Assembly: GCF_023008245.1 (NCBI RefSeq) | Contig: NZ_CP090145.1 | Coordinates: forward strand, 3,348,001-3,412,000 | Origin: Flavobacterium sediminilitoris | GTDB taxonomy: Bacteria > Bacteroidota > Bacteroidia > Flavobacteriales > Flavobacteriaceae | Direction of reading: 5' to 3' | Length of the DNA: 64,000 nucleotides | Shown here: one piece after another, positions 19,200-34,068 of the stretch | Layout: each line of letters opens with the position of its first letter | Position numbering within the stretch: the first letter of the stretch is position 1 | Notes under the pieces: model-generated | What the model saw: only the letters and a program-made list of their open reading frames with translations | Databases searched by the model: none | What the model was told of the DNA's origin: nothing | Translations under genes and position numbers: made by a program

Positions 19200-19901
19200 T
19201 TATTCGTTTACCGTTAGTCGAAACGAGCTAAGGCTTAAAGGTTTACAATCACTCAAAGGAATAGACAAATAGCTGTTATTATTTTGAAACAAAAGCATAC
19301 TGTCATTATTCGGGTTGAGTTGTTTTTTTATAATTGGAAACAAAACATCAAATTCCAAGGCATAACCTGTTGGAAACAAACAATTGTCTTTTAACCAATA
19401 CGTTTGTCCTTTAATAGGTAACAAAGGTGTACCTAAAAACAATATGCTATCTTCAATGATTATCCATTTTAAATTCTGCAAACGTACTTGCGGTAGTGTT
19501 TCAATATACCCTTTTACATTTTCCAATTTAGTGATTACTCCATAAGGCTTTTGTTCGGCTTCACTTTTTACTATCTTGATGTCTATTTTGTCATGAATAC
19601 CAAAATAATTCATATTGTATTTCGGTAAATCAATAGGCAAAGCATTCAAAATAGGCATCCACAACAAAGCAGAAGGTAATTTTTTCGTAGGTACTAATTT
19701 GTCCTTACGAAACAACAATTGCTCTTTCAATTCATACACTATAATGTGCGGAATTTGTAGCAAAACGACATCGTTAATTTGCAAAGGAGTAAAGTCTTTA
19801 ATAAAAGCCCTTTCTCCTTCAAAAGCCAATTTCAAATTGTCCCAATGACGTATAGGAGCTAAATATTCCAAATGACTTTTATGTAATTCCACATAGTACA
19901 T
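19200..19901 (-). CDS. bpX-type accessory protein between MoxR and vWA genes
   Basis: This soluble 233-residue protein has no signal peptide and no recognised catalytic motif. It starts at the very base where the MoxR gene stops (TAATG-type one-nucleotide overlap) and ends 4 nt before the vWA gene. Many hydrophobic-aromatic beta-strand stretches point to an all-beta fold. Its place in the operon is the main evidence that it belongs to the ternary system. Confidence 0.55.
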   Translation of the reverse strand: MYYVELHKSHLEYLAPIRHWDNLKLAFEGERAFIKDFTPLQINDVVLLQIPHIIVYELKEQLLFRKDKLVPTKKLPSALLWMPILNALPIDLPKYNMNYFGIHDKIDIKIVKSEAEQKPYGVITKLENVKGYIETLPQVRLQNLKWIIIEDSILFLGTPLLPIKGQTYWLKDNCLFPTGYALEFDVLFPIIKKQLNPNNDSMLLFQNNNSYLSIPLSDCKPLSLSSFRLTVNE

Positions 19902-21034
19902 TACGCAAATGTTTTAAGCATTTTCTGCCACAATTGTTCAATTTCCTCTTGAATGTATTTCTTTTGTTCTGGGTTTTTAATCCAATCACAACGGGTTTGC
20001 ACATAGCGCAATTTATCTTTTATGATATTCTGCTCTTCAAAAGACAAGGTACCGTCGTTCCATTTCTCTGACAAATACTTCACTTCTTTCATTACCTCTT
20101 CTGCATCAGGAACTTTATTATAAACTGCTTGTGGATGGGCTTTTTCACTAGTATCTTTTTCAATCACATGATTCACAATACCTTCCAAAACCTCAACTTG
20201 TTCTTCGGTGTCCCAAATGTATTTCAACACCCACAAATCCGATAAAATAGCAGTGTCCCTACCACAAATAAAAGCACTTGCCGCAATTAAATTTTGAATT
20301 TTAACCGCTCTACGGTCGGAAACATTGATTCCTGCATTACGCAACGAATGAATTAAATCGACATATTCTTTACGAATAGGTGACAAATCTACTTTTCGTG
20401 TTGCTGCTTGCAATTCTCTCACTTCATCTGCTTTTATAGTTGGAGTTGTTTCATCTGTTTTATTTTCTAATTTCCAACCCGCTAAAAGTACTTCGTTCAA
20501 TAAATCAGGATCTACATAATCACATTTTACGCGAAGTAAAAAACGGTCTAGCAAAGCGTTTAATGCTTCGTCTTCTGGTAATAGATTACTCGCTCCCACA
20601 AACATTAAGGCTGGCAATTTCTTTGTTTCTTTACCTCTACGGAATATTTTTTCGTTCAAAGCCATCAATAAACTATTCAAAATAGCCGAATTGGCATTGA
20701 AAATTTCATCTAAAAAAACCATAGACGCTTCTGGCATCATGGCTTCGGTATTGGTAACCAATTCACCGTCTTTTAACTTTCGAATATCAAAAGGACCAAA
20801 AATTTCATTTGGTTCTGTAAAACGGGTTAATAGGTATTCGAAGTTTTTACCGTCTTCGATACCATTAGATAAAGCTCTAACAATAGCACTCTTTGCTGTT
20901 CCAGGAGGACCTAACAAAAAAGCATTTTCTCTAGCCAATAAACTTATACCAAGCAAATCGACAATTTCGTTTTTACCGATGAAGGTTTCTTTTATATGTT
21001 TTAAAAGGGCGTTTAAAGTATGTAGTGTGTTCAT
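19901..21034 (-). CDS. MoxR-family AAA+ ATPase
   Basis: The protein has 377 residues. Walker A G-P-P-G-T-A-K48-S, Walker B M-V-F-L-D109-E110 followed by I-F-N-A-N-S-A-I-L-N-S-L-L, sensor 1 F-V-G-A-S-N and the arginine-rich L-L-D-R-F-L-L-R segment are all intact. MoxR ATPases act as chaperone-like remodelers of vWA proteins; the vWA partner is two genes downstream. The RavA-like length without extra domains and the partner genes place it in a MoxR-vWA-beta-propeller conflict system, a class proposed by comparative genomics to respond to invasive elements. Confidence 0.9.
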   Translation of the reverse strand: MNTLHTLNALLKHIKETFIGKNEIVDLLGISLLARENAFLLGPPGTAKSAIVRALSNGIEDGKNFEYLLTRFTEPNEIFGPFDIRKLKDGELVTNTEAMMPEASMVFLDEIFNANSAILNSLLMALNEKIFRRGKETKKLPALMFVGASNLLPEDEALNALLDRFLLRVKCDYVDPDLLNEVLLAGWKLENKTDETTPTIKADEVRELQAATRKVDLSPIRKEYVDLIHSLRNAGINVSDRRAVKIQNLIAASAFICGRDTAILSDLWVLKYIWDTEEQVEVLEGIVNHVIEKDTSEKAHPQAVYNKVPDAEEVMKEVKYLSEKWNDGTLSFEEQNIIKDKLRYVQTRCDWIKNPEQKKYIQEEIEQLWQKMLKTFA

Positions 21035-22336: not shown

Positions 22337-22383
22337 TAATAGCTAATGACTATTCACTAAGAACTAACTACTAAGGACTAATC
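22337..22383. repeat. CTAATGACTATTCACTAA low-complexity repeat
   Basis: Same repeat family as 31889-31924 and 32778-32841, here just after the exonuclease stop codon. It separates the RNA island from the MoxR operon. Confidence 0.5.
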
Positions 22384-22930
22384 ACTCATTCTCAAGACAC
22401 CAATGCAGTATCTTAGCAATATTCTTGGCATCATCTACACCTCTGTGGTGTGTGCCTTCTAATGGAATATTTAAAATGTCCAACGCTCCGTTCATACCTA
22501 CTTTTTTATTCAGTCCTTTCACTTCACTAAACAATTCTTTTACGTTAATGTGATGACTTCCCATAGGGTAACTAATTTTCCTGTAGGAACATTGTTTTTT
22601 AAGCATGTTCAAATCGTACTGACCATAACTTGCCCAAGTGTATTGATCGGGTTGGTATTCCTGTTCCAGCATTTCAATGGCATCTTCAAAAGACATTCCT
22701 TCATTATCCAATAATTCTTGCGTAATTGTGGTCAGTTCTGTACAAAACGGACTTACCGTTGAATGTTCTGGTTTAATAAGGATTCCTTTATTTTTAGTAA
22801 TCGCTCCAGAAAGAGTATCTAATTCACAAATACCTATTTCTATTATTTCATTAACTTGCCCTTTAGGTACTGGACCGTTCCAGCAAGTTGCTTCTAAATC
22901 TATGATGATTATTTTTTCTGTTGTTTTCAT
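22382..22930 (-). CDS. DEDDh 3'-5' exonuclease, ERI-1/KapD-like
   Basis: This 182-residue single-domain protein has the three Exo motifs: I-I-D11-L-E13-A-T-C-W, S-Y-G-Q-Y-D-L near residue 110, and H-R-G-V-D-D-A-K near residue 165. The D-L-E-A-T-C-W start is typical of ERI-1/KapD exonucleases, which trim RNA 3' ends, rather than of DNA polymerase proofreading subunits. It overlaps the small membrane-protein gene upstream by 4 nt (ATGA), so both are made together. In an island full of tRNAs and RNA ligases, trimming of RNA ends before ligation is a natural job; this is inferred. Confidence 0.85.
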   Translation of the reverse strand: MKTTEKIIIIDLEATCWNGPVPKGQVNEIIEIGICELDTLSGAITKNKGILIKPEHSTVSPFCTELTTITQELLDNEGMSFEDAIEMLEQEYQPDQYTWASYGQYDLNMLKKQCSYRKISYPMGSHHINVKELFSEVKGLNKKVGMNGALDILNIPLEGTHHRGVDDAKNIAKILHWCLENE

Positions 22931-23181
22931 TTTTTATTTTTCATTGCTATAAAGATGGAATCAAATGCTATTGCATTTTTGTTTTTCTCATTCTTTACTT
23001 TCATTTCATCTAATTTTACTTTAGCCATGTGTTTATGTATATCATCCAAAAAAGCATTTTTTGGTGGTTTACTATTAACATTTAAGTTACTTAAGCCTAC
23101 TATACTAGTCACCATACCTATTATTTGTATGGCATGAACTATTCCATGAACTATATTTTTATTTGTATTCTCTTTTTTCAT
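22927..23181 (-). CDS. Small membrane protein of unknown function
   Basis: This 84-residue protein has one hydrophobic segment (about residues 12-32, H-G-I-V-H-A-I-Q-I-I-G-M-V-T-S-I-V-G-L) and a basic, charged C-terminal half. It overlaps the exonuclease start by 4 nt. No homolog is recognised. Coupling to the exonuclease suggests a membrane tether or a regulator; this is a guess from position. Confidence 0.6.
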   Translation of the reverse strand: MKKENTNKNIVHGIVHAIQIIGMVTSIVGLSNLNVNSKPPKNAFLDDIHKHMAKVKLDEMKVKNEKNKNAIAFDSIFIAMKNKK

Positions 23182-23198
23182 TATTTCTAAGGTTATTT

Positions 23199-23228
23199 AA
23201 AACCTCGAAATAAGAATTCCGAGGTTTT
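23199..23228 (-). terminator. Terminator-like hairpin after the RING/TerD gene
   Basis: The arms AAAACCTCG and CGAGGTTTT pair perfectly around a 12-nt loop just downstream of the RING-like gene. The T-run is short, so read-through into the small membrane-protein gene is possible. Confidence 0.6.
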
Positions 23229-23230
23229 GA

Positions 23231-25474
23231 TTAATCTACTAACAACTGCGTTACGGCAGCTGCATTAATGGCCCATTTTTGGTCGTAAACTTCATCCGCA
23301 TCAAGTGAATCTACAATTTGTAATTTTTGAGCCTTTGCTTTTATAGTTAACAAACTACCAATATTCAATTTGCTCGATAATTTAGCTAATAGAGCTTGTA
23401 CTCCTTTGTAATCCAAACCTTGAACTACTTGACCACCAAAAGTCATTTCTAACCAAACGATTTCTCTTTTGGCTACATCAAGTACACCAAAAACTAAACC
23501 TTTAGCCACATTTTGAGTTACTCTTACTTGGTGATCTACACAAGAAGGGTCGTATGCTACACCAGATCGCTCTGAAATAGTCATTGGATATTTACTATTC
23601 ATCCAACCTACAACTAAGTTAGGTGTAATACTTCCATTACTATAAGCATTACAAGTAAAAGTTACATATTTGGCTCCAGCATAAGCTAGTGCATTTACAT
23701 CAATATTGATATATTCGGCAGTACCTATTTGATTTGGAATACTTCTTATATCTCCACTATGCGTACAACCTGTTGCTTGCAATTGGCTATACGAACAAAT
23801 CTCTGTTTTATCTGCATACGCAATATGACAACTCAAATCCATATCCAAATGTTGTGCTGGTAAACCTTGTCCCCATTGCATAAACAATCGTACAGTATTG
23901 CCTGCTATTGGAAAACGTGTTCCCATTAAGGCTACTGGTAAATCTTGTATGCTCTCACTTCTATCTCCTATAGACACTGGCATATTGAATAATTGTGGAT
24001 CAATATAAATCGTTTTGTTCTCATTCTCTTGAGCTGCAAATCGTTTCTCCATTGCCAACAAGCACAACTCTTCAATTTGATTTTGCATCGCTTTTAATTG
24101 GTCTTCATTGTACAACGATAACAATCTATTTGGTCCAATTTTCTTGTTTACTCCACCTAAAGGTTTCACACTTCTTTGTATGTTGCTATCAAAGTAGTTT
24201 TGTGCATACATGTTCAACGTAAACACCAAACGAGCAGGTACTTTATCAATTATCTTCTCAAAAGCCGCTATCGTTTCATCAGGTCCAAACCATAACATAT
24301 TAGAGAACAAAGAACGAGCAAACAAACCTGGTCTTTCTTGTAATAGAGCAAAAGTGGTAGCCGCATCCGATTTTAAACGGAAATAATTTACTTTTCCTTG
24401 CCACACTTCATACGTTTGATTATAAAATACATCTAACAATGTTTTCAAAGCTTCAAATCCTTTTCTCTTACTATATTCTGACAAACGCAAAGCTCTAATA
24501 AAACGCACCCACATTGCTCTTTTTGGATGCATCATTTCACATGCTTTTTCTGCTTCTAATGGTAAATTATTCAACCATGTAGCTACCATTAAACATTCCT
24601 TTCTTGAATATTTTAATTTCAAATCTATTGCTGTAATCAATTTCGCTTTCGCACTATTATCAGCAGCAACAAAGAAATGTTGGTTATTACTAGCAATTCT
24701 ATTGATGATTGTTTTTGGTTCAATGATCTGTAATAAATTGGTTTTCTTGTACCATAAATAACGTAAAATATCCGTTGGAGAAGTAAAAAGAGAACTTGCC
24801 TTTTCTTCTTTATCCAAGTCGATTAACGTATCAATCACTAACATCATCGTTTCTTTAATTCCAATTTTCACTTCGCTTGGCAAAGGCAAATAAGACAACA
24901 ATCCCTTCAAACTATCTACTTGTGTAGCATCTAAAGCGGTTTTAGAACTTAATAACGAATGATAAAATTCGTTTAACTCTTTCTCAGTCCAAAGCTCCAA
25001 TACTTTCATTTTACTACCTTGTCCTTCTTGTTTAGTAGTATCAAACTCAAATGGAGTACCACAATAAGGACAACCATTATAACGCTCTAATGGAAACGTA
25101 TTCGCAGGAATAATATGTCCACATGCTAAAGTGGTTCCTTTATTGGTTTTAAAAACATTCGCAAAAAAAGTAGTAATATGATCATACAAAGACTCTCCTG
25201 TTGGAATTTCCCAGTTTTTTACTAATGGTGTCCAGTTTTTGTTAACTCCTACTACTTCTTTTATAGTATCTTGAATTTCTAATTTATATATTGGATGCAC
25301 TGCATTAATAGCTTGTAAAGCTTCTTCTGAAAAAGCAAATCCTAATTTGGATACATTAGCTACTAAAACCGATGTTGGTCCTGTAATCGTTGTTGTTGTT
25401 CCAGTGATGAATTCACTAGGAATGTATAGTGCGTTTTGACGCAAGCTGATTTTTAATAATTCGTTTGTTTTCAT
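23231..25474 (-). CDS. RING-like zinc-binding, TerD-like domain protein (MXAN_6230/SCO0854 family)
   Basis: The protein has 747 residues. A single treble-clef zinc site is visible at Cys118-x-His120 and Cys135-x2-Cys138 (A-C-G-H-I...G-C-P-Y-C-G), the RING-like feature of the MXAN_6230/SCO0854 family. A long helical, HEAT-like middle part spans about 150-480. The C-terminal part (about 510-680) resembles TerD: D-M-D-L-S-C-H-I-A-Y, C-T-H-S-G-D, Y-I-N-I-D-V-N-A-L and G-W-M-N-S-K. It is the largest protein of the RNA island and is separated from the upstream genes by the tRNA-like element region. A scaffold or RNA-binding role, as for Ro60-type proteins, is speculation. Confidence 0.7.
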   Translation of the reverse strand: MKTNELLKISLRQNALYIPSEFITGTTTTITGPTSVLVANVSKLGFAFSEEALQAINAVHPIYKLEIQDTIKEVVGVNKNWTPLVKNWEIPTGESLYDHITTFFANVFKTNKGTTLACGHIIPANTFPLERYNGCPYCGTPFEFDTTKQEGQGSKMKVLELWTEKELNEFYHSLLSSKTALDATQVDSLKGLLSYLPLPSEVKIGIKETMMLVIDTLIDLDKEEKASSLFTSPTDILRYLWYKKTNLLQIIEPKTIINRIASNNQHFFVAADNSAKAKLITAIDLKLKYSRKECLMVATWLNNLPLEAEKACEMMHPKRAMWVRFIRALRLSEYSKRKGFEALKTLLDVFYNQTYEVWQGKVNYFRLKSDAATTFALLQERPGLFARSLFSNMLWFGPDETIAAFEKIIDKVPARLVFTLNMYAQNYFDSNIQRSVKPLGGVNKKIGPNRLLSLYNEDQLKAMQNQIEELCLLAMEKRFAAQENENKTIYIDPQLFNMPVSIGDRSESIQDLPVALMGTRFPIAGNTVRLFMQWGQGLPAQHLDMDLSCHIAYADKTEICSYSQLQATGCTHSGDIRSIPNQIGTAEYINIDVNALAYAGAKYVTFTCNAYSNGSITPNLVVGWMNSKYPMTISERSGVAYDPSCVDHQVRVTQNVAKGLVFGVLDVAKREIVWLEMTFGGQVVQGLDYKGVQALLAKLSSKLNIGSLLTIKAKAQKLQIVDSLDADEVYDQKWAINAAAVTQLLVD

Positions 25475-25504
25475 TTTATTTATTTTTAAAAAAATTAGAT
25501 AATG

Positions 25505-25551
25505 GTGCTTCTGTTTTCTACCAAAGAGTTTGAAGTAAGAAGCACTTGACC
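25505..25551 (-). ncRNA. tRNA-like hairpin element E1 with 21-nt motif
   Basis: Minus strand: GGTCAA, then the 7-mer GTGCTTC, then TTACTTCA, about 19 nt, and GAAGCAC, the exact complement of the 7-mer. A 7-bp stem of acceptor length therefore closes a 27-nt body. It is the copy closest to the RING/TerD start codon, 31 nt upstream, and may also act in its leader. Confidence 0.5.
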
Positions 25552-25570
25552 TTAATTCTAGAAGATAATA

Positions 25571-25625
25571 GGCTAACTAGCATGACAAATTTTAAGTTTG
25601 TGGTTGAAGTAAGTTAGTTTTGACC
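25571..25625 (-). ncRNA. tRNA-like hairpin element E2 with anticodon-arm-like stem-loop
   Basis: Minus strand: GGTCAA, AACTAAC, TTACTTCA; CTAAC can pair with GTTAG downstream. Between them lies ACAAA-CTTAAAA-TTTGT (25585-25601), a 5-bp stem with a 7-nt loop of C-U-N3-A-A form, exactly like an anticodon arm (it would read UAA). No T arm is visible, so it is not a normal tRNA. Confidence 0.5.
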
Positions 25626-25678
25626 TTCTATAGTGGAGCAGATGGGATTCGAACCCATGACCTGGGCGTTAAAAGCGC

Positions 25679-25825
25679 TGAAGTAAGTTTGAATTGACCA
25701 AAACGCTATTTGAAAATGTACCAACATTTTTGGACTCGAACCAAGACTTCCGAAGAAGTCTAACCTGATTGAAGTATGTTGCTATTGTCCAACTAGTTCT
25801 GACGTTTTGATAATGTATAAACTAA
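25679..25825 (-). other. Intervening sequence inside tRNA-Lys, carrying motif copies E3 and E4
   Basis: This 147-nt insert begins TTAGTTTATAC and ends with a 21-nt motif copy (E3, 25679-25699) whose TTACTTCA is directly joined to the 3' exon. It also contains the tRNA-like element E4. The octamer CAGGTTAG occurs both across the 5' junction and inside E4. No ORF or target duplication was found. Confidence 0.6.
25719..25784 (-). ncRNA. tRNA-like element E4 (T arm plus UUCG-capped stem)
   Basis: On the minus strand a 7-mer (TAGCAAC, within the 21-nt motif at 25770-25790) can pair with GTTGGTA at 25719-25725 with one mismatch. Inside are a D-loop-like AATCAGGTTA, a perfect 7-bp hairpin with a TTCG tetraloop (25744-25761), and a T arm TTGG-TTCGAGT-CCAA with canonical loop (25730-25744). 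The anticodon arm is thus replaced by a UUCG stem, recalling the tRNA-like parts of tmRNA or bacterial Y RNAs. Confidence 0.5.
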
Positions 25826-25875
25826 CCTGCTCTACCACTGAGCTACTGCCCCAAAAGATGAATCAACTGATAATC

Positions 25876-25924
25876 GTACAAGTGTGTTTTCTGGAAAAAA
25901 ATTTGAAGTAACTTATACTTGACC
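25876..25924 (-). ncRNA. tRNA-like hairpin element E5 with 21-nt motif
   Basis: Minus strand: GGTCAA, GTATAAG, TTACTTCA, a 21-nt segment, then CTTGTAC, which pairs with the 7-mer over all seven positions including one G-U. The body shares T-T-A-C-T-T-C-A-A-A and AGAAAACA with element E1. It precedes the tRNA-Lys 5' part by about 23 nt. Confidence 0.5.
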
Positions 25925-25945
25925 TTGTTGACTCATTTTTAGTAT

Positions 25946-26009
25946 TTAAAAGAACGTTTTTATTTCTTTACAAAGATTTCATTATTAGTACGCAATTATT
26001 TTACGTAGT
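25946..26009 (-). promoter_or_regulatory. Duplicated upstream segment, copy A (probable promoter/operator)
   Basis: About 64 bp that recur with roughly 80 percent identity at 27731-27796. The minus strand contains ACTACGTAAAATA...GCGTACTA and GAAATCTTTG, one base off the TAnnTTTG -7 box. It lies just upstream of element E5 and could drive the tRNA-like transcript. Confidence 0.45.
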
Positions 26010-26183
26010 GCAAATATTTTTTAAATATCTTATTATAAACAACAACTCAAAACAATTATTCTCAAAGCTATCGTGCTGTAAACGTTCCATAAGTAATTTA
26101 TATAACATTTTTTAACCACAATTATTTATACATATATTCTTGCATAGAATTTTAAAATATAAACACCAATAGTTCAAAAAGAC

Positions 26184-26207
26184 AAAAAAGCCTTCATCAC
26201 GAAGGCT
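26184..26207 (-). terminator. Terminator of the T9SS gene
   Basis: AGCCTTC and GAAGGCT pair around a 5-nt loop and are followed by six T on the minus strand, 29 nt after the stop codon of the secreted-protein gene. Confidence 0.8.
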
Positions 26208-26235
26208 ATAAATAAATTCGTAAAAATTAATTAAA

Positions 26236-27267
26236 TTACTTTTTTATAATTTTACCTCTCTGTTTATATCCATCACTGTTTTTAATTTCATAAAAATAGA
26301 TTCCAGACTTCAAAAAATCAATATTTAAATTTTCTTCTAAACTATTCTTTTCAATTAAAATCTTATGATTATTATCAAATAATTGAATAGATAAAGTTTT
26401 TAGATTCTCTCCTTCAAATGATAAAAACTCACTTGCTGGATTAGGATAAACATTTACTTTATTTTCAATATTCATCAGTTCATTTTCTATTTCTTTAGAA
26501 TTATTAAATGAACTTTTACTTTGCTGAACATCACATCCTCCACAGTCTAATACTTTTTCAATCTTTACAACTCTCTTGATTTTATTACCAAAACAGTTCA
26601 TCATTACATTTCCTCCAGTATTAAAATTTAAGTGAAAAGAATGCATTGTTCCATTTTCAAATTCAATAACAACACAATAACAAGAATGACATAAACTATC
26701 TACTTTTGTAACTTTCACACAAGACATAGTTCCACAATTCTCAATAGAAGATATTAAACAATTTTCATTTGTATTATTATTACAAGAATGCTCAACTAAA
26801 TTGACATAAGCTGGACTTCCAGGTCTTAAAAAATTTATATTCATGGAATTTTCAATAATTAAAAATCCACTTGAAGGCAATGTTTCAAACTTCATTGTTA
26901 AAGTATCAAAATCCGCTTGAATGATTATTACTTTCATTCCATTCATTAAGTTAGTACTTATAACTGAATTAGTTGAAGCATCATATTGAGCATTTTGAGA
27001 TAATGGTAAATTAGGATTAATGATCAATTCTTGACTTCCATTTACTCTTTTTAATACCCATTTAGAATTTAATTTTTGAGAATTTGTTAGTACTGAACTT
27101 GACTCTCTTGTATAAGTATGAAAAACATTACAAGAAGCTACATCATCATAATTTGCTCCAGTATCAAAAATTGGAGACTGTACTATTCCATTTCCTACAA
27201 CTCTATCTATTTGAGAAAAGAGTGTAGATGTAATTAAGACGAATACTATTAAAATTTTATTTTTCAT
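26236..27267 (-). CDS. Secreted protein with T9SS type A sorting domain
   Basis: The 343-residue protein starts with a signal peptide (M-K-N-K-I-L-I-V-F-V-L-I-T-S-T-L-F-S-Q). The middle has many cysteines (N-N-N-T-N-E-N-C, C-G-T-M-S-C, D-S-L-C-H-S-C-Y-C, D-C-G-G-C-D), suggesting disulfides in an unknown exported domain. The end is a T9SS type A sorting domain (V-N-V-Y-P-N-P-A-S-E-F-L, S-G-I-Y-F-Y-E-I). It is a stand-alone gene with its own terminator, set between the ATP-grasp genes and the tRNA-like region, and looks unrelated to them. Confidence 0.8.
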   Translation of the reverse strand: MKNKILIVFVLITSTLFSQIDRVVGNGIVQSPIFDTGANYDDVASCNVFHTYTRESSSVLTNSQKLNSKWVLKRVNGSQELIINPNLPLSQNAQYDASTNSVISTNLMNGMKVIIIQADFDTLTMKFETLPSSGFLIIENSMNINFLRPGSPAYVNLVEHSCNNNTNENCLISSIENCGTMSCVKVTKVDSLCHSCYCVVIEFENGTMHSFHLNFNTGGNVMMNCFGNKIKRVVKIEKVLDCGGCDVQQSKSSFNNSKEIENELMNIENKVNVYPNPASEFLSFEGENLKTLSIQLFDNNHKILIEKNSLEENLNIDFLKSGIYFYEIKNSDGYKQRGKIIKK

Positions 27268-27837
27268 GTTTGTTTGAATTCCTTTTGCATTTACATGCCA
27301 TTTTATACGAAAACTTTAGGACTTTAGTTAAATGTTCCGTATTTATTATATCCTTTTTAGGATATAAATAATTATATATTACGAATTTATTTAAAACAAA
27401 AATAAATTAAAAATTGTAAGAAAAAACACAAAAGTTGTTAAATAATATCACATTAAAAACAAACTCGCCTTTACTTTAAACCCAAATTACGAATTAGAAA
27501 TCTATTACAAAATCTAATGTATAATCTGGATTAAAGAACGGAAAAAGAGAGGTTAAAAAAAGTGTTGCAATGGTTTTCTATTTCATTTACCCTATTGTAC
27601 TGGCAAATCATACAAACAGAAAAGCAAAACAGCAGTTCCAGAAACGTACACCCTTTTCAGGTCTTTAGATAATGTTTCTTCATTAAAAAGAAAGGTCTCT
27701 TTGCAAAGGCTAATTGTTTTTATAGTAATCTTAAAAGAACGTTTTATTTTCTGACACAAAGATTTCAACAGTAGTACGCAGCTATTCTACGTAGTATAAA
27801 AAATGTATAAATTATTCTCAATATTGTCTTATAATCA
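27268..27837. other. Intergenic region with palindrome and promoter-like duplicate
   Basis: About 570 bp without a gene. At 27346-27367 lies a perfect palindrome (TTATATCC, 6-nt loop, GGATATAA) upstream of the T9SS gene, a plausible operator. The right end holds copy B of the duplicated segment. I found no ORF, tRNA or 21-nt motif copy in it. Confidence 0.6.
27731..27796 (-). promoter_or_regulatory. Duplicated upstream segment, copy B
   Basis: The second copy of the segment at 25946-26009, sharing TTAAAAGAACGTTTT, AAAGATTTCA and the GTACGC...CTACGTAGT block on the plus strand. It follows directly downstream of the ATP-grasp gene at 27838-28623 and precedes a long gene-free region on the minus strand. 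Confidence 0.45.
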
Positions 27838-28623
27838 TTAACCATTAATAAATGCTATAACAGTTGCCAAATAGGCTTCTCTAACCGCTTCAAATCGGGT
27901 GATGTTTGGAATATGATTCACTTCCAATAAATACTTCTTACCATCATTACCTACTATGTAATCATTTCCTATCATATCCATTTGCATGGCTTTTTGAATG
28001 TGTAAAGTATCGGCTAATAATTCAGCATCTACTGGCATAAAACCCGCACTATTGGGATGAATAGATTTTAACCACGTTTCCCCTTCCAGTTTAATTTGCC
28101 AATGCTTATCACCAAGTACCATAATACGAACCGCTTCTCCTTCAAAATAAGCTTCGGTTGTAGCGGTAAATTCACTTTCCCATTCGCCCGTAAAACGATG
28201 TTTGTTTTCGCCACAATGCCAATTGCCCCATTTAGCAACCGTATCTTCTGTTGCGTTCATTGACGCTCCTGCACTAATAAATCCTCTTGGTGCACTAAAT
28301 TGCGTATGCGTTAAAGCCTTCACCAAACAAGGAATCTTAAAGCGGCAATCGAGCATGGCAACTGCATTAGGATAACAATCCCCATTCCAGATAGCCAAAC
28401 CAGCAATAAAATCGAAATCATTATCATAGATACCGTAATAGACTACTTTATCTACAGGTAACATGCCTACTCCATTGGCTTTTTCCATGTATAATACTTG
28501 GCCTTTTACCACAATTTTTGGAAGGGCTTGATGCCAAATGATCAGTCCAGAATAATTAGCTCTAATGACCTCATATTCTTCTTGTTCTATGCCAACTAAG
28601 GCTATTCTGTTATAGATTTGCAT
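27838..28623 (-). CDS. ATP-grasp-like protein (third of three)
   Basis: The protein has 261 residues. The clearest ATP-grasp feature is the end of the fold, K-K-Y-L-L-E-V-N-H-I-P-N-I-T-R-F at about residue 228, where the glutamate and asparagine bind Mg-ATP; E-G-E-A-V-R-I-M-V-L-G near residue 164 fits the preceding strands. The N-terminal half is divergent. ATP-grasp enzymes join a carboxylate to an amine or thiol with ATP. It starts 4 nt after the stop of the 105-residue gene. Product and substrate are unknown. Confidence 0.65.
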   Translation of the reverse strand: MQIYNRIALVGIEQEEYEVIRANYSGLIIWHQALPKIVVKGQVLYMEKANGVGMLPVDKVVYYGIYDNDFDFIAGLAIWNGDCYPNAVAMLDCRFKIPCLVKALTHTQFSAPRGFISAGASMNATEDTVAKWGNWHCGENKHRFTGEWESEFTATTEAYFEGEAVRIMVLGDKHWQIKLEGETWLKSIHPNSAGFMPVDAELLADTLHIQKAMQMDMIGNDYIVGNDGKKYLLEVNHIPNITRFEAVREAYLATVIAFING

Positions 28624-28627
28624 TTTT

Positions 28628-28945
28628 TTATTGTTTCAAGCGTTCTTGATGGGCTTTATCTCGTTGCTCTATGGCTCCAAAAGGACTCCCTTTGAAATAA
28701 CCAATATTCACAAAACCATTCTCTTCTGTAATAAGAGATTCTTTCTTAGTAACAGCTCCTGTATATTTAGAACCATAATTCCCTTCTAATTGTCCCGTTG
28801 CAGGATTTAAATCGCCCCATTTGGGTGTTTTTCCATTATAAATAGGTTCTACGAAATAAATAATTCCTGTTATCCTCGATTTCATTAAGAATCTTCCTGT
28901 TTCGTCGGTATTCGTTAAAAATCGTTTTAGTATATCTTTTCTCAT
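28628..28945 (-). CDS. Small hypothetical protein in the ATP-grasp cluster
   Basis: This 105-residue soluble protein begins M-R-K-D-I-L-K-R-F-L and has no membrane segment or known motif. It contains several G/P/N turns (N-G-K-T-P-K-W-G-D-L-N-P) and ends in a charged helix (Q-R-D-K-A-H-Q-E-R-L-K-Q). Its stop is 4 nt before the next ATP-grasp gene. It might be a substrate or carrier protein for the ATP-grasp enzymes; this is only positional inference. Confidence 0.6.
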   Translation of the reverse strand: MRKDILKRFLTNTDETGRFLMKSRITGIIYFVEPIYNGKTPKWGDLNPATGQLEGNYGSKYTGAVTKKESLITEENGFVNIGYFKGSPFGAIEQRDKAHQERLKQ

Positions 28946-28996
28946 TTTTCTATTTTTTTTAATTGTTTTTATTTTGTTGTTTTTTTAACCACATAG

Positions 28997-29041
28997 GTAC
29001 TCTCAATCTGCGTCACTTCGAGTGCGAAGCGTATCGAGAAG
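28997..29041. repeat. 45-bp direct repeat, copy 1
   Basis: Identical to 29962-30006 except for one base, same orientation, the two copies flanking the middle ATP-grasp gene. It contains the hairpin CTTCG-AGTG-CGAAG and a GTATCGAGAAG end, features of short dispersed repeats common in Flavobacteriaceae. Confidence 0.75.
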
Positions 29042-29054
29042 CTATCATTATGTT

Positions 29055-29834
29055 TTACCTATTCAAAAAATAGAGATACAAAGCCTTAATAATACTTTTC
29101 ACATCGGTATTGGTATAAAAACCAGAACTGTTGATGCAATTTATTTCTACAATTTTCCAGCCATCAGAAGTCAAACAAATGTCCATAACGAAAGCTTCTT
29201 CTAAGTTAAAAAGGGAAATCATTTCTTTGGCAAAAGCCATTCCTTCAGCAGCAACACTAGCTTCAAAAGCAAAATCTCCATTAAACTTATAATAACCAGC
29301 ATCTATAATTTGTCCGCCTACAATCCAAACTCTTGCTTCCTTTATAGTTGTTTTAGGTTTGGAAATTTGTATTTCTGAATCTTTAGTAATGGAAAGCTTT
29401 GGATGGGCTAAAGCCTCAATAATAAAATCTTCCCATTCTTCTTTTTCAAATACTTTTCCTGTGAAAATTTTAGCTTCTTTATAAGGTTTTATAAATTTCT
29501 TCTCTCCTTTTTGCCAAACCAAATCATCTGTTAGCTTTCCAATCTTTATTTCATCATTCAACAAATGTGAACCATAATAATGAGCATACACTTCATACAA
29601 ATGATTGCCACCATAAAACGAACCTGGAAACCAGTCTTTATATTGTTTTGCTAATCGTGCCATAGTTACCGAACCATATACAAAAACATCCTTTCGATTA
29701 GCTTTCATAGCAATTTCGGTATCGGTTGGTTTTATATTTACAACTTCATATTCTATTCCTAATTCGTCCAAAGCATCAAAAACTTTATAATGATCCGGAT
29801 CTAAATAGATATTGGCTTGGACTAAAAAATACAT
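29055..29834 (-). CDS. ATP-grasp protein, R2K-type (second of three)
   Basis: Using the ATG at 29834 (M-Y-F-L-V-Q-A-N-I-Y) the protein has 259 residues; an ATG at 29873 would add 13 residues that look like leader sequence. Residues around F-I-K-P-Y-K-E-A-K-I-F-T-G-K-V-F carry closely spaced lysines, as expected for the R2K clade of ATP-grasp enzymes (the CDC123-related group). The C-terminal F-V-M-D-I-C-L-T-x3-G-W-K-I-V-E-I-N-C-I-N-S-S-G-F-Y gives the Mg-binding D, E and N. Members of this clade are predicted peptide/protein ligases. It is flanked by two 45-bp direct repeats. Confidence 0.75.
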   Translation of the reverse strand: MYFLVQANIYLDPDHYKVFDALDELGIEYEVVNIKPTDTEIAMKANRKDVFVYGSVTMARLAKQYKDWFPGSFYGGNHLYEVYAHYYGSHLLNDEIKIGKLTDDLVWQKGEKKFIKPYKEAKIFTGKVFEKEEWEDFIIEALAHPKLSITKDSEIQISKPKTTIKEARVWIVGGQIIDAGYYKFNGDFAFEASVAAEGMAFAKEMISLFNLEEAFVMDICLTSDGWKIVEINCINSSGFYTNTDVKSIIKALYLYFLNR

Positions 29835-29875
29835 GATTTCTAAATTTTTAATTGTTGTTTTTACATAAGACATAA

Positions 29876-29936
29876 GGTTCTCGATACATTTTTAATTAAA
29901 TCGCTATTTACATTTCATTAAAAATACTCTAACTGA
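29876..29936. repeat. Degenerate GTTCTCGATAC...CTGACG repeat
   Basis: Begins GTTCTCGATAC and ends ACTCTAACTGACGAAG around a TTTTTAA...TTAAAAA hairpin. The same ends in the same order occur at 32568-32617, so both belong to one dispersed palindromic repeat family related to the 45-bp repeats nearby. Confidence 0.55.
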
Positions 29937-29961
29937 CGAAGTATTAACAACATCAAACCTA

Positions 29962-30006
29962 GTACTCTCAATCTGCGTCACTTCGAGTGCGAAGCGTATT
30001 GAGAAG
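29962..30006. repeat. 45-bp direct repeat, copy 2
   Basis: One mismatch (T for C in GTATTGAG) relative to 28997-29041. It lies just downstream of the first ATP-grasp gene. Confidence 0.75.
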
Positions 30007-30016
30007 TTTATACTAC

Positions 30017-30838
30017 CTATGCTTCTATTCTCCGTTTTATTACTTTTATTAATTCTACTTTCACCGTTTCTGGAAAACCTGATAATCCTGGAATATCATT
30101 ATATTCTACTATAAATTCGTTTCCTTCTTTATCTATTAGCACATCTAAAGCGAGAATATCTGCTTTTAAATGATTGCTTACTTTTCTAATTCTTGTTTCC
30201 CAGATAGAGCTTACTTCTATTAATTGAAATTCGTTTGTTAATACATTCGATTTCCAAAATTGTCCTTTGCGTTGCATCGCCCAAACTTTATCTTTTACTA
30301 TCAAATAGCGTATATCAAACTGATAATCAATATAAGGCTCGATAGTACTATAATCATTGGTTACAAATAACAAATCTTGAATATCTTGCCATTTTTCAGC
30401 GTTTTGAACCAATACTTTTCCATAACCACCATGATAGTTACCCACTTTAACTACAAAAGGAAATGGCATTGCTATGTTTTTTAATAATCTAGAATGCGTA
30501 ACTACTTGAAAAGGAATTACAGGCATTCCTAGATTCGATAAAACATGCAACATAGACAAACGATCATAACCTTGAAGTAACGTTTCAGCACTATTCACAC
30601 AAACAACATTGGAACTCTTAATGATTTCTAAAGCCGTTCTATGCTTCCAATTGGGTGAAATGGCACCCAATCTCCAAATGATTAAATCGGGTGCACATAC
30701 TCCTTCACTATCTACAACAAAGAGTTTTTTATCTTTCAGTATAAAATCAGAATCTTGAATTTTCTTCTGAACTACAGTAAACTCTGGAAGATAATCTTGC
30801 CAATATTTTTCTCCATTCAGTACTAAAATTGTTTGCAT
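30017..30838 (-). CDS. ATP-grasp protein, RimK-like (first of three)
   Basis: The protein has 273 residues. The fold is easy to follow: L-I-I-W-R-L at about 52, G-Y-D-R-L-S-M-L near 90, the ATP-binding P-F-P-F-V-V-K-V-G-N-Y-H-G-G-Y-G-K (Lys plus glycine-rich loop) near 126-141, I-E-P-Y-I-D-Y-Q-F-D-I-R near 167, and L-D-V-L-I-D-x3-N-E-F-I-V-E-Y-N-D-I-P-G near 232. RimK-like enzymes add amino acids to proteins or peptides. It begins 4 nt after the RNA ligase stop, a tight link between an RNA enzyme and a peptide-bond enzyme. Confidence 0.8.
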   Translation of the reverse strand: MQTILVLNGEKYWQDYLPEFTVVQKKIQDSDFILKDKKLFVVDSEGVCAPDLIIWRLGAISPNWKHRTALEIIKSSNVVCVNSAETLLQGYDRLSMLHVLSNLGMPVIPFQVVTHSRLLKNIAMPFPFVVKVGNYHGGYGKVLVQNAEKWQDIQDLLFVTNDYSTIEPYIDYQFDIRYLIVKDKVWAMQRKGQFWKSNVLTNEFQLIEVSSIWETRIRKVSNHLKADILALDVLIDKEGNEFIVEYNDIPGLSGFPETVKVELIKVIKRRIEA

Positions 30839-30842
30839 TGTT

Positions 30843-31853
30843 TTACACTTTAATCGTCATAAACTCTTCTTTAATTAAGCTTATCACTTGGTTATTGACT
30901 CTTTTATTGATGCTTTTTTGTTCTTCTTTTTCTAAAACATCTAAAGCTGTTGGGTTGTCTTTTTTAAAATCAGCAATCACATCTTGTGAAAACAATCCTA
31001 CCAATTTACCCATCATTTTAGGCTGAAATTCTCCTTCTTTACTCAACACATTATACAATCTGTTAATAGTAATATAGTCTTGAATAGTTTCCCAAATGGT
31101 TTGTGCTTCTCCTGAAAAATAATTCTCTTTATGCTCTTTTTTAGGTTTGTTGTTTTTACCTACTTCAGCCCATTTTTCATTTTTATTCTTCAAAATCACT
31201 CTAGAACCGTTTCCGAAATACTTTGGAATAATTGGCTTAATAATAACTCCTTCGCAAATATTGTTTTCTAATTGGGGTAAACCCAACCAATTTGGAATCA
31301 AGGAGTTAAATTCATTTGGATAACGAAAGGCTTCTTCTAAAGTACCCTCAAACAAGGTTTTTGCATAAAAGAAACCTGTTTTTTCAAACACACTATTTGC
31401 CGAATCAACGGTTAAGTAATGCGTGCCGTTTACTTTAATATCAAAAGCATAGAAATCATTTTCTGGGCAATAATCCACTCCTTTTTGTACTTTGATAGCG
31501 TTTTTTGCTACAGCTACTTCTTTATGGTTGTAATTTCCACCAAACAATTCCCCAAAAATCACAATGAACTTAGTCTCTTGAAATTCCGATTGTACCGTTT
31601 TAAAAGCTTCCAATACTTTCTCTTTGTATCGTTTTGCTACTTCATGAGCATTGTAAAAAGTCTCCTCTTCACTAACGAAATCAGTACGCTTTGCAATCTT
31701 AATCGTTTCTCCATCCGTATAAAAAGAGAAGTTAGCACCGTGTACCTTTTCTTGTACCACATAGATTTCTTTCTCAAAACCATGAATTATAATTTGTTCC
31801 AAAACTTGTTTTTGGTACGTATTTTCTATTGAATTGTATTTTCTAAATTCCAT
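30843..31853 (-). CDS. RNA ligase, Rnl2/REL-like
   Basis: The protein has 336 residues. Nucleotidyltransferase motif I is E-K36-V-H-G-A-N-F; Lys36 would carry AMP. F-I-V-I-F-G-E-L-F-G-G (motif III region), C-E-G-V-I-I-K-P (motif IV) and V-I-L-K-N-K-N (motif V) follow in the right order and spacing, as in T4 RNA ligase 2 and trypanosome editing ligases. The C-terminal 90 residues are helical, as in Rnl2. Such enzymes seal 3'-OH/5'-phosphate nicks, often in duplex RNA. It lies between a second, different ligase and the RimK-like gene. Confidence 0.85.
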   Translation of the reverse strand: MEFRKYNSIENTYQKQVLEQIIIHGFEKEIYVVQEKVHGANFSFYTDGETIKIAKRTDFVSEEETFYNAHEVAKRYKEKVLEAFKTVQSEFQETKFIVIFGELFGGNYNHKEVAVAKNAIKVQKGVDYCPENDFYAFDIKVNGTHYLTVDSANSVFEKTGFFYAKTLFEGTLEEAFRYPNEFNSLIPNWLGLPQLENNICEGVIIKPIIPKYFGNGSRVILKNKNEKWAEVGKNNKPKKEHKENYFSGEAQTIWETIQDYITINRLYNVLSKEGEFQPKMMGKLVGLFSQDVIADFKKDNPTALDVLEKEEQKSINKRVNNQVISLIKEEFMTIKV

Positions 31854-31888
31854 TTTATTAAACTAAAAGTTAAAAACTAAAAATTAAA

Positions 31889-31924
31889 AGCTAAGTACTA
31901 AGTACTATTCACTAAGTACTAATT
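31889..31924. repeat. CTAAGTACTATTCACTAA low-complexity repeat
   Basis: Units of CTAA(G/T)TACTA and ACTATTCACTAA in tandem. Similar stretches occur at 22337-22383, 32620-32658 and 32778-32841, all downstream of genes on the minus strand in this island. Confidence 0.5.
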
Positions 31925-32483
31925 CCAATCGCTTAACACCAAAATCAGATTTTCTTAACTTACACATTCTGTCATCTACTTTGTGGTGAAAAACAATACC
32001 TTCTATATCTGTTTCATCACTCATTAAGAAAGCTTTTAAATCCTCAAAAGCAACACTTTCTAAATCAATTATTTCAGAACCGTGTTTTACCAATTGGTGT
32101 GTTTCAAATCGTTCCGGGTTACCTTGCACTTTAGGACCACAGAGTTCATATGTACCATCTAATAATATTGTTAAACTATCAAACCCTTCAAAGAAGAAAC
32201 GATCTTCTGATTTGGTTCGATCACATTTTATCCAGTGTGGATGATGACCCGATTTACTATCTGCTTCTTGACAAGGAATGGCTCCATCAGGAATTTTTCT
32301 ACCCTTTTTAGCATCAAATCGTTTAAACAATTCACCATCAATAATAGCCACCGAAGTACCATCAAATTTTCTTGTCGCTATCGCTTCCCCTTCAAAAACC
32401 CAAGCATTTTCTTTGTTAATTATGCTCGTTACCCTACCTAAATCTTTAGGATCTTTTTCAAATAATGTACTTATCTTTTTCAT
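31905..32483 (-). CDS. RNA ligase-like nucleotidyltransferase (DUF5565/RNA ligase 1 type)
   Basis: At 192 residues this is a minimal adenylation domain. Motif I is A-T-R-K39-F-D-G-T-S-V, motif III T-Y-E-L-C-G-P-K-V, motif IV D-I-E-G-I-V-F-H-H and motif V M-C-K-L-R-K-S-D-F-G. No OB-fold or other C-terminal domain remains, so it may act with a partner, perhaps the Rnl2-like enzyme encoded next. It is the first protein gene after the tRNA array, separated from tRNA-Thr by about 180 nt of repeat-rich sequence. Confidence 0.82.
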   Translation of the reverse strand: MKKISTLFEKDPKDLGRVTSIINKENAWVFEGEAIATRKFDGTSVAIIDGELFKRFDAKKGRKIPDGAIPCQEADSKSGHHPHWIKCDRTKSEDRFFFEGFDSLTILLDGTYELCGPKVQGNPERFETHQLVKHGSEIIDLESVAFEDLKAFLMSDETDIEGIVFHHKVDDRMCKLRKSDFGVKRLELVLSE

Positions 32484-32567
32484 CTTATTTTTCTTTTTTA
32501 TGGTTAGTTAAACCTTAATAATTTGAGTCCAAATCCAATCGAGAAGCTTTACTTCAAAAAAGAGTTC

Positions 32568-32617
32568 TCGATACTTTTTAACTACGTTGCTCTACGTTAA
32601 AAAACTCGAACTGACGA
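32568..32617. repeat. Palindromic GTTCTCGATAC...CTCGAACTGACG repeat
   Basis: Contains TTTTTAAC-TACGTTGCTCTA-CGTTAAAAAA, a hairpin of about 8 bp, between GTTCTCGATAC and ACTCGAACTGACG. A partner ATCGAGAA stands 20 nt upstream (32539-32546). Same family as 29876-29936. Confidence 0.5.
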
Positions 32618-32619
32618 AC

Positions 32620-32658
32620 TGCTAATTACTAAGCACTATTTACTAAGTACTAATCACT
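32620..32658. repeat. CTAATTACTAAGCACTA low-complexity repeat
   Basis: Short units of CTAATTACTAAG and ACTAAGTACTAATCACT immediately after the 3' end of tRNA-Thr. Same family as the stretches named above. Confidence 0.5.
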
Positions 32659-32659
32659 T

Positions 32660-32731
32660 AAACACCAGAAGGAATCGAACCTCCATCTCCAGCATACATT
32701 GCTGTTGCTCTAACCTTTGAGCTATAGCATT
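32660..32731 (-). tRNA. tRNA-Thr(UGU)-like
   Basis: A 72-nt cloverleaf: AATGCTA/TGGTGTT acceptor stem with three G-U pairs, GCTC/GAGC D stem, 4-bp anticodon stem (CAGC/GCTG) with loop AATGTAT, and GGAGG-TTCGATT-CCTTC T arm. The anticodon reads UGU. Position 33, almost always U, is A here, and the acceptor stem is weak, so decoding ability is doubtful. No CCA is encoded. Confidence 0.7.
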
Positions 32732-32738
32732 TTGTTGA

Positions 32739-32775
32739 TTTGTCAGGATTCGAAACCGAACAAAGAGAGTCAAAG
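32739..32775 (-). pseudogene. 3' fragment of a tRNA, related to the tRNA-Arg of the same array
   Basis: The minus strand has a T-arm-like GG-TTTCGAAT-CC followed by TGACAAATCAACAAAATG. The same order (TTCGAATC-TTGACAAAATCACAAAATG) forms the 3' end and trailer of tRNA-Arg at 33000-33073. No matching 5' half is present upstream, so it is a partial duplication. Confidence 0.5.
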
Positions 32776-32777
32776 TC

Positions 32778-32841
32778 TTACTATTCACTAATTACTATTC
32801 ACTAATCACTAATTACTAATTACTATTCACTAGCTACTAAA
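32778..32841. repeat. CTAATTACTATTCA low-complexity tandem repeat
   Basis: About 64 bp of repeated CTAATTACTATTCACTAAT units between tRNA-Pro and the tRNA fragment. It belongs to the same family as the stretches at 22337, 31889 and 32620. Confidence 0.6.
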
Positions 32842-32844
32842 CAG

Positions 32845-32917
32845 TCTGGGAAGCAGGACTCGAACCTACAACCTCTCGCATCCAAAGCGAGTAAACAACC
32901 AATCGTTATCTTCCCAG
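32845..32917 (-). tRNA. tRNA-Pro(UGG)
   Basis: A 73-nt cloverleaf with perfect CTGGGAA/TTCCCAG acceptor stem, weak D stem (AAC/GTT), perfect CTCGC-TTTGGAT-GCGAG anticodon arm (UGG), and GTAGG-TTCGAGT-CCTGC T arm. C1-G72 and discriminator A73 fit bacterial tRNA-Pro. CCA is not encoded. Confidence 0.85.
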
Positions 32918-32999
32918 CGGTTACTCAAAGTCAAGTCTTTTTGAGAGACAGTCAAAAAAACCATCCTTTGAGTGGGTGTTCCTTTCTAAGAACATTTTG

Positions 33000-33073
33000 T
33001 GATTTTGTCAAGATTCGAACTTGAAACCTATTGCTTCGTAGGCAATTGCTCTCTCCAGTTGAGCTACAAAATC
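33000..33073 (-). tRNA. tRNA-Arg(ACG)
   Basis: A 74-nt cloverleaf with perfect GATTTTG/CAAAATC acceptor stem, GCTC/GAGC D stem with 9-nt loop, ATTGC-CTACGAA-GCAAT anticodon arm and TCAAG-TTCGAAT-CTTGA T arm, discriminator A. The ACG anticodon normally becomes ICG through TadA. The next tRNA lies only 5 nt away, so they share a transcript. Confidence 0.9.
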
Positions 33074-33078
33074 AGTTG

Positions 33079-33165
33079 CGGAGAGCAAGGGAATTGAACC
33101 CTCATTACCTTGTGAGTAAACCGATTAGCAGTCGGGTGTAACAAACCAATATTTACCTACTCTCC
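33079..33165 (-). tRNA. tRNA-Ser(GCU)
   Basis: An 87-nt class II tRNA: GGAGAGT/GCTCTCC acceptor stem, GTAA/TTAC D stem, anticodon loop CTGCTAA (GCU), long variable arm (TTAC...GTAA), GAGGG-TTCAATT-CCCTT T arm, and discriminator G73 as expected for serine. CCA is not encoded. It is the first tRNA of the array. Confidence 0.9.
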
Positions 33166-33178
33166 AAATTTTAAGCAT

Positions 33179-33208
33179 AAAAAAAAGCACCTCGTTAAAG
33201 GTGCTTCA
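33179..33208 (-). terminator. Terminator/attenuator upstream of the tRNA array
   Basis: AAGCACC and GGTGCTT pair around an 8-nt loop and are followed by eight T on the minus strand, immediately before tRNA-Ser. Since no good promoter lies between it and the tRNA, transcription must read through or be regulated here. Confidence 0.8.
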
Positions 33209-33233
33209 TGTTTACAAATAAGATAGTATTATC

Positions 33234-33368
33234 TTATTGCCTATAGTGATGCACCTGCATGTTTCGTTTTACCGCGAAGTCAAAACTCGGGTTTAGTGAA
33301 AAGCTACGCTCTAGTGAAATTAAATTCATTTTTTGTTCTCCTTTATACTGTATATCTAGTGTTCTCAT
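33234..33368 (-). CDS. Small ORF (44 aa) upstream of the tRNA array
   Basis: The ORF starts M-R-T-L-D-I-Q-Y-K-G-E-Q-K and ends Q-V-H-H-Y-R-Q. An internal ATG (codon 14) is preceded by AAAGGAG, an unusually good ribosome binding site here, and would give 31 residues. A promoter fits at 33468-33500 and a terminator follows 26 nt after the stop. The peptide is basic and has no membrane segment. It may be a leader peptide controlling read-through into the tRNAs, or a peptide substrate for the ATP-grasp proteins. Confidence 0.5.
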   Translation of the reverse strand: MRTLDIQYKGEQKMNLISLERSFSLNPSFDFAVKRNMQVHHYRQ

Positions 33369-33467
33369 GTTTCTTAATTATAAATTGTTACTGATTAATT
33401 AATCAATTGTTTTATTACTTCTTCAAAAATCAATCATTACTAATTGATTGCTTCATTATTTCTGCTG

Positions 33468-33500
33468 CAAAGATAAAGTCAAAAAAAGTAAACTTCCAAA
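33468..33500 (-). promoter_or_regulatory. Bacteroidota-type promoter for the small ORF/tRNA transcript
   Basis: On the minus strand TTTG, 21 nt, then TATCTTTG match the TTTG / TAnnTTTG consensus. The predicted start is near 33461, giving a leader of about 95 nt before the 44-residue ORF. Confidence 0.6.
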
Positions 33501-33736
33501 TCTTTTTTTAAATTATTTTATTGACTATCAATTAGTTACACTTATTTTTAAGCAAAAAAAAGCCTGTCCGTTTTACAACCGATATTCTTAAATCATCCAA
33601 ATGACTGTCTCTCATTTGCTTAGCTTTCAAGTCTTATTTTGTTTTATTTTTATTAAGCATTAAACATTTTTTTCTTTTTTTTAAATTCTCTTCTCTTTCC
33701 TCTATTCTCTTCACTAATTACTAAGTAATAAACAAC

Positions 33737-33766
33737 AAAAAAAGCGCCCTCTTGTGAAGGACGCTT
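33737..33766 (-). terminator. Terminator after the 37-aa ORF
   Basis: AAGCG(T/C)CCT and AGGGCGCTT pair around a short loop with seven T following on the minus strand. Confidence 0.8.
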
Positions 33767-33803
33767 GTATATATTGTGAAGTAAAAAGTACTTTTTCTGT
33801 ATT

Positions 33804-33917
33804 CTAAAACTCATAAAACATTACAAACGACCTATTGCCCTTAGCAGGGAATCCTTCTGCTAAACGGTAGTTACTATCTTTTGATAGTATTACAATATGT
33901 TGTCTTAATGTTTTCAT
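33804..33917 (-). CDS. Small ORF (37 aa) with its own terminator
   Basis: Begins M-K-T-L-R-Q-H-I-V-I-L and ends N-R-S-F-V-M-F-Y-E-F. TATATTTG at 33926-33933 on the minus strand fits the -7 box; the transcript would then start almost at the ATG, so the message may be nearly leaderless. Like the 44-residue ORF it begins M-(K/R)-T-L, contains R-S-F and is followed by a terminator. The two may be paralogous peptides. Confidence 0.45.
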   Translation of the reverse strand: MKTLRQHIVILSKDSNYRLAEGFPAKGNRSFVMFYEF

Positions 33918-34068
33918 TTCGAGGACAAATATAAGATTTATTTTATAAAATTCATTTTTTTAATAAAAATTACATCTAAAAATGCTAAAATTATAAGATT
34001 ACTTTAAATAGTACTACTTAACCACAAGATCCAATTCTAAAATGGAAACCAAACAATGAACACAATCT

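Follow-up and report, generated by a model that had tools for sequence, protein, structure and literature searches.

A stretch of 64,000 nucleotides of Flavobacterium sediminilitoris (contig NZ_CP090145.1, positions 3,348,001 to 3,412,000; here called the window), part of a 3.9-Mb genome in a single contig, contains a tandem array of small RNA modules directly ahead of a gene for a protein with RING-like, HEAT-like and TerD regions. The modules belong to a structured RNA family that is not in Rfam and is conserved across the phylum Bacteroidota, always in company with a gene of this type. By analogy, and with a probability that we put at about 0.5, the locus would be a Bacteroidota counterpart of the Ro–Y RNA–RtcB repair operon, dealing with damaged tRNAs. 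An earlier note on the window had described an RNA-centred conflict or repair island with two RNA ligases, ATP-grasp proteins, an exonuclease, a RING/TerD protein, four tRNAs, an interrupted tRNA-Lys and tRNA-like motif copies; all of these are present.

The array is noncoding, 450 nt long (25492-25932, minus strand) and precedes the RING/TerD gene (23231-25474). Its order is module 1 (25863..25932, 71.6 bits in the model search), a tRNA-Lys(TTT) with a 147-nt insert (25634..25852), module 4 (25558..25633, contig 3373558-3373633; 52.1 bits, with no match in the default-filter model search) and module 5 (25492..25559, 69.6 bits), all on the minus strand. Module 5 adjoins the start codon and reads P1-GGUCAA-P2-UUACUUC-X-P2'-AUUAUC-P1'. 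The insert, which is read between tRNA positions 28 and 29, holds a circularly permuted core and a nested, degenerate module (25712..25790, minus strand; GGACAA ... ACTTC ... T-arm ... CATTTTC), recognized by reading the sequence and by its fold. A pattern search located the homologue of this tRNA-Lys at 9624-9842 of the Flavobacterium jejuense locus (L058). The array folds better than chance (z -3.3; an equally good fold in 1 of 100 shuffles), and the fold of the single sequence agrees with the comparative structure. Together with the compensating changes that the helices of the motif show elsewhere, this bears out the claim that the motif exceeds chance. To call the copies tRNA-like was correct as to their presence but understated what they are: not degenerate tRNAs but a single defined RNA motif that occurs in two circular permutations.

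Eleven Flavobacterium genomes gave the module consensus P1-GGU-CAA-P2-UUACUUC-X-P2'-nAUU-AYC-P1', in which X is freely variable; the modules hold a conserved asymmetric internal loop. In 25 aligned modules seven of seven P2 pairs show compensating changes, and paired double changes fill 88 cells (32.1 when shuffled, 48 in the best slid control). RNAalifold recovers P2 unaided, plus an eighth pair, an invariant U-A. For 64 modules from 26 of the 27 loci searched the figure is 278 cells versus 106.8 shuffled and 138 in the slid control, a value favoured by the alignment, which was model-found and fitted to the structure. For the search model (R1) the training set comprised 25 of 40 normal modules, taken from the window and from nine of ten relatives (L022 was omitted); long and near-identical modules had been dropped by hand. 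The RNA has no match in Rfam 15, Y RNA families included; permissive thresholds applied to the array gave nothing near any family's gathering score, and no paper on this RNA was found among the titles and abstract openings of the open-licence literature.

The RNA is strictly linked to the protein. In a sample of 296 genomes from the order, the 11 that carry the RNA are the same 11 that encode a close homologue of the RING/TerD protein; a twelfth protein match (27% identity) comes from a genome without the RNA. In 84,980 species genomes a pattern scan found 172 relatives, and the locus counts rest on the best 80. In all 80 the RNA precedes the RING/TerD gene in the same orientation: in 59 of 59 Flavobacterium-side loci, several of which are R1 training genomes, and in 21 of 21 from more distant Bacteroidota, which gave no training sequence (the weakest, L137, has a best model match of 33.5 bits). 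Three additional Bacteroidota plasmid records also carry the RNA. A TerD cousin of the L025 type (23–27% identity) was set aside: R1 finds nothing in its genome, and the region upstream looks unrelated. No RNA-repair gene is annotated near two Deinococcus relatives.

The permuted core sits inside tRNAs. A sequence pattern places it in the tRNA anticodon arm at 76 of 80 loci, a count in which a few right-hand ends are T-arms of nested modules. The permuted order is 5' half, P2', nAUUAYC, a closed P1 loop, GGUCAA, P2, UUACUUC, 3' half; P2 covaries in seven of seven pairs in this form as well (26 sequences), and its near-invariant letters match those of the normal form. Read jointly, the tRNA flanks form a full 5-bp anticodon stem in 42 of 60 scored distinct pairs versus 118 of 1631 mismatched pairs, with the best of several joints taken for true and mismatched pairs alike and 18 of the 78 distinct pairs unscorable. 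By eye, the 18 pairs that score below 5/5 are mostly T-arms of normal modules, not tRNA 3' halves, as is one of the 42 (the second L107 pair). U33 is present in 37 of the 42, under a scoring that favours U33 in ties. The anticodons of 70 arms in 68 of 81 loci are TTT (39), TCT (15), GTT (3), GAT (2) and single others, in a tally that requires U33, assumes the joint and includes doubtful arms. Within Flavobacterium the anticodon varies by locus and the rest of the tRNA is almost unchanged. Insert-bearing tRNAs score 43–59 bits with the tRNA model in seven of 13 Bacteroidota loci scanned (L126, L127, L131, L135, L136, L265 and L266); the tRNA-Lys of the window has 14.1 bits with the Rfam tRNA model, below 29.

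To judge from the sequences, the fit of the flanks is compatible with either an extra arm or an intron. A genuine intron would be excised by RNA catalysis or by a protein nuclease and the halves joined by RtcB or an Rnl-type ligase; the normal modules would then be its permuted counterpart and release circular RNAs. We regard this as unlikely, although it is the strongest of the alternatives. It would account for the restored stem, for U33 (subject to the tie preference), for a compact core present in two circular permutations and for the RtcB or kinase/ligase genes nearby. In addition, most stem-site cases place the joint at an almost fixed distance from the core (of 31 in-stem pairs, 25 have 2–3 nt on the 5' side and 29 have 1–2 nt on the 3' side), which weakens the argument against splicing. 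However, a tRNA with an extra arm would also fit the flank complementarity, and a self-acting ribozyme strictly tied to one protein would be unusual. The insertion site also shifts within the anticodon arm (28|29 is the commonest, 24 of 42), the remaining stem-site cases have 4–8 nt on the 5' side, loop-site joints are ambiguous and the near-constant cases are largely close relatives. In archaeal tRNA introns the splice sites are marked by a 4-bp helix flanked by two 3-nt bulges; the insert does not show this bulge-helix-bulge pattern, its helix having 7–8 bp with unequal loops. Group I introns of bacterial tRNAs are, in the accessible part of one account (PMC4090602), likewise inserted in the anticodon region, but the present core is only ∼ 50 nt, has no fixed site and occurs outside tRNAs too, and the Rfam results for the array and the loci scanned include no group I match.

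The protein partner has 747 residues (23231..25474, minus strand), with RING-like, HEAT-like and TerD regions assigned from profile matches and the predicted structure. Its sole Pfam match at E ≤ 0.01 is a weak one to Prok-RING_4 (E 0.0024, below cut-off); the same search gave no TROVE domain. The C-terminal TerD domain is seen in the structure model, no C-terminal vWA domain was found and Ro60 is absent from the matches of a PDB sequence search (E ≤ 10). The predicted architecture is suggestive of Ro60, with TerD replacing vWA, and the protein is probably a dedicated, Ro-like partner of the RNA family. Like MXAN_6230/SCO0854 proteins, it aligns to NCBIfam RING_SCO0854 (NF041916) along residues 24-700 (E 7.8e-36), but at 123.6 bits against a cut-off of 600 its sequence is near that family and outside its cut-off; one Streptomyces and one Variovorax relative searched have no match to the RNA. 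No literature on SCO0854 or MXAN_6230 was found among open-licence papers. The nearest named relative, at 94%, is from F. jejuense. A second, partial RING_SCO0854 match, covering model positions 568-653 only, was seen in a same-genus genome (L264; G739:C5:199617-199880).

We propose the following model. The core of the system would be a ribonucleoprotein made of a Ro60-like ring protein (RING, HEAT-like ring and TerD) and the small RNAs whose transcription immediately precedes it. All of these RNAs would offer a common protein-binding stem, consisting of P1-GGU/AYC, the CAA/nAUU internal loop, the 8-bp P2 and UACUUC. The head that the stem carries would differ from RNA to RNA, being a hairpin, a mini-tRNA with a T-arm or an entire tRNA attached through its anticodon arm. 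If Ro–Y RNA–RtcB operons are a guide, the particle might hold or recognize tRNAs cut at the anticodon; the tRNA-mimicking heads could be decoys or competitors for anticodon nucleases, or gates for the ring. A neighbouring ligase (RtcB, a kinase-phosphatase with Rnl1, or Rnl2) would reseal broken tRNAs, and extra tRNA clusters would replace lost ones.

Ligase genes are indeed frequent neighbours. Counting the 80 loci of the relatives and the window, RtcB is nearby in 39 of 81, Rnl1 in 19 and Rnl2 in four; any one of them is found in 62, and never two together. RtcB is not near the window itself. A Pnkp-like kinase-phosphatase occurs in 20 of 81 loci, and RlaP in 20 by clustering or 17 by phmmer. 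The idea of an RNA-centred island linked to repair is supported by these neighbours.

A WYL/WCX regulator is encoded in 58 of 81 loci, and an inverted repeat with a TTTG box lies upstream of the array in 73 of 81 by pattern; 177 further matches fall outside the upstream stretch, and among the 60 of these listed many are these same palindromes met on the opposite strand or copies 2–6 kb downstream. In the window the operator (ACGTA-N7-TGCGTA) and TTTG box stand in front of the array (25971..26006, minus strand), and repeat comparison and the pattern give a second copy at 27757..27792 on the same strand. We infer that the WYL regulator binds the inverted repeat, and together they would switch the system on. 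A gene for a secreted-looking protein (26236-27267, minus strand) sits between the two operator/promoter copies (27756-27812 and 25970-26026; 57 nt, 79% alike), as if inserted with a duplication of the control region.

That a single operator precedes both array and gene would also suit an arrangement in which the array is only a leader, the protein binding tRNA-like substrate copies in its own mRNA and shutting off translation. The array is directly upstream on the same strand in all 80 loci, and its last module often ends no more than ∼ 30 nt from where the protein match begins. A leader has no need of as many as six model matches across 1.7 kb (L114) or of complete tRNAs, however, and tRNA clusters and ligases accompany many loci; we consider this reading improbable. 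More doubtful still is a form of bacterial tRNA splicing in which a mini-intron and its circular permutation share one transcript, and RtcB or Rnl joins the ends left when the mini-intron is cut from a tRNA of variable anticodon. In that case tRNA halves and small circular RNAs would report or buffer anticodon-nuclease attack on the Ro-like particle.

The genes that gave the locus its first description are a changeable set. All on the minus strand of the window, they comprise an ERI-1/RNase_T-type 3'-5' exonuclease (22382..22930; RNase_T 1.5e-18; in eight of 80 loci), an ATP-grasp-like protein (27838..28623; TTL 0.0036, below cut-off; four), an R2K_3 ATP-grasp (29055..29873; 3.3e-29; one), a RimK/synapsin-like ATP-grasp (30017..30838; 3.3e-16; a true counterpart in one, three other matches being 22–24% cross-matches to the other ATP-grasp), a T4 Rnl2-type RNA ligase (30843..31853; RNA_ligase 3.2e-24, T4_Rnl2_C 8e-21; three) and an RLIG1-type RNA ligase (31905..32483; 7.7e-8; one). 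A further gene of an accessory block (19901..21034, minus strand; six of 80) we take, by resemblance, to encode the MoxR-type AAA ATPase of a MoxR-VWA block. The F. jejuense locus has three ATP-grasps, Rnl2 and six tRNAs, without RLIG1; L109 has RLIG1 and one ATP-grasp. RLIG1 alone was rejected as a guide to the system, as it led only to its own genome and one of 100 family genomes. As a test, the earlier note had named the co-occurrence of both ligases, the ATP-grasp trio and the motif in other genomes. The motif does recur, with the RING/TerD gene; the ligase pair and the trio do not define the system, and tagging of a protein or peptide is unsupported as a core function. These two ligases and three ATP-grasps are accessories, and the constant part is the array and the RING/TerD gene.

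A tRNA cluster, Ser(GCT)-Arg(ACG)-Pro(TGG)-Thr(TGT), was found by tRNA and Rfam scans at 32659..33165 (minus strand). At least three tRNAs on the same strand within 10 kb upstream occur in nine of 80 loci and in the window, some contigs being too short to tell. Clusters of 9–11 tRNAs upstream of the array were seen in L115 (8077-9323), L116 (1775-3043) and L122 (4896-6547), with many anticodons common to the cluster of the window or of L058. Upstream of the window cluster, at 33170-33360 and 33760-33920, inspection by eye shows two open frames of ∼ 40 codons, each followed by a hairpin and a T run, possibly leaders or further small RNAs. Two adjoining genes at 49116-53455 of the window both have relatives (46–62% identity) in L058, L062, L073 and L119; by appearance they may be a Gabija-like pair, resembling an OLD-type ATPase and a UvrD-type helicase.

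The tRNA clusters look to us like those of large phages, and with the patchy accessory genes and the nested degenerate module they might make the whole a relic of tRNA arrays from mobile elements or phages, its parts having no function in common, a reading that is very improbable and largely refuted by the covariation: this and the near-invariant bases show selection across the phylum, the linkage of RNA and RING/TerD gene has no exception in the 80 loci, and at least 120 pattern matches in viral contigs were taken as chance, the best of the 80 contigs scored by the model having 27.6 bits (E 0.012).

The present work adds to the known RNAs a family that spans a phylum, is absent from Rfam and is tied to one protein. 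If the locus encodes a Ro–Y-like particle, perhaps of independent origin, the role of Ro and Y RNAs in RNA repair becomes approachable in tractable bacteria. The decoy idea becomes directly testable through the fusion of one stem to hairpins, to mini-tRNAs and to whole tRNAs whose anticodons change, and removal of the insert, if it occurs, would define a new type of bacterial tRNA intron.

GGU...ACC closing a conserved asymmetric loop recalls, we believe, the Ro-binding stem of Y RNAs, a likeness that we treat as a lead only. That stem has a conserved bulged C according to the accessible passages of PMC4030889. RNA-repair systems with RtcB, RlaP and RNA ligases were predicted by Burroughs and Aravind (as cited in passages of PMC6514570 and PMC7824862); the present loci likewise have RlaP, Rnl1, Rnl2, RtcB and Pnkp-like genes, but the passages of these two papers contain no RNA array of the present kind. 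As far as the accessible text goes, Ro/TROVE proteins are seen as a ribonucleoprotein platform that serves RNA repair and has a tRNA-like partner (PMC7824862). In the same limited sense, a Ro60 orthologue and Y RNAs are among the products of the Salmonella rtcBA operon; one of these RNAs, YrlA, has a tRNA-like domain that the authors suggest as a possible competitive inhibitor of an anticodon nuclease; the title of that paper states that damaged tRNAs regulate the operon (PMC7790460). The gene for a Variovorax relative of the RING/TerD protein lies 1.3 kb from rtcR. On its other side, downstream, is a noncoding tandem repeat (L268, 8505-8641), possibly a further RNA partner; no clear second RNA family emerged from the Variovorax repeats on that side of the RING gene. 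Like rsr-yrlBA-rtcBA of Salmonella and other bacteria, the present loci combine the gene of a ring-type protein with tRNA-mimicking noncoding RNAs and, in 39 of 81 cases, RtcB, and have a regulator on the opposite strand. They differ in a protein with RING and TerD and no TROVE match, in an RNA without an Rfam match and in a WYL regulator in place of RtcR, and further in the tandem arrangement of the RNAs, in the joining of entire tRNAs through the anticodon arm and in interchangeable ligases.
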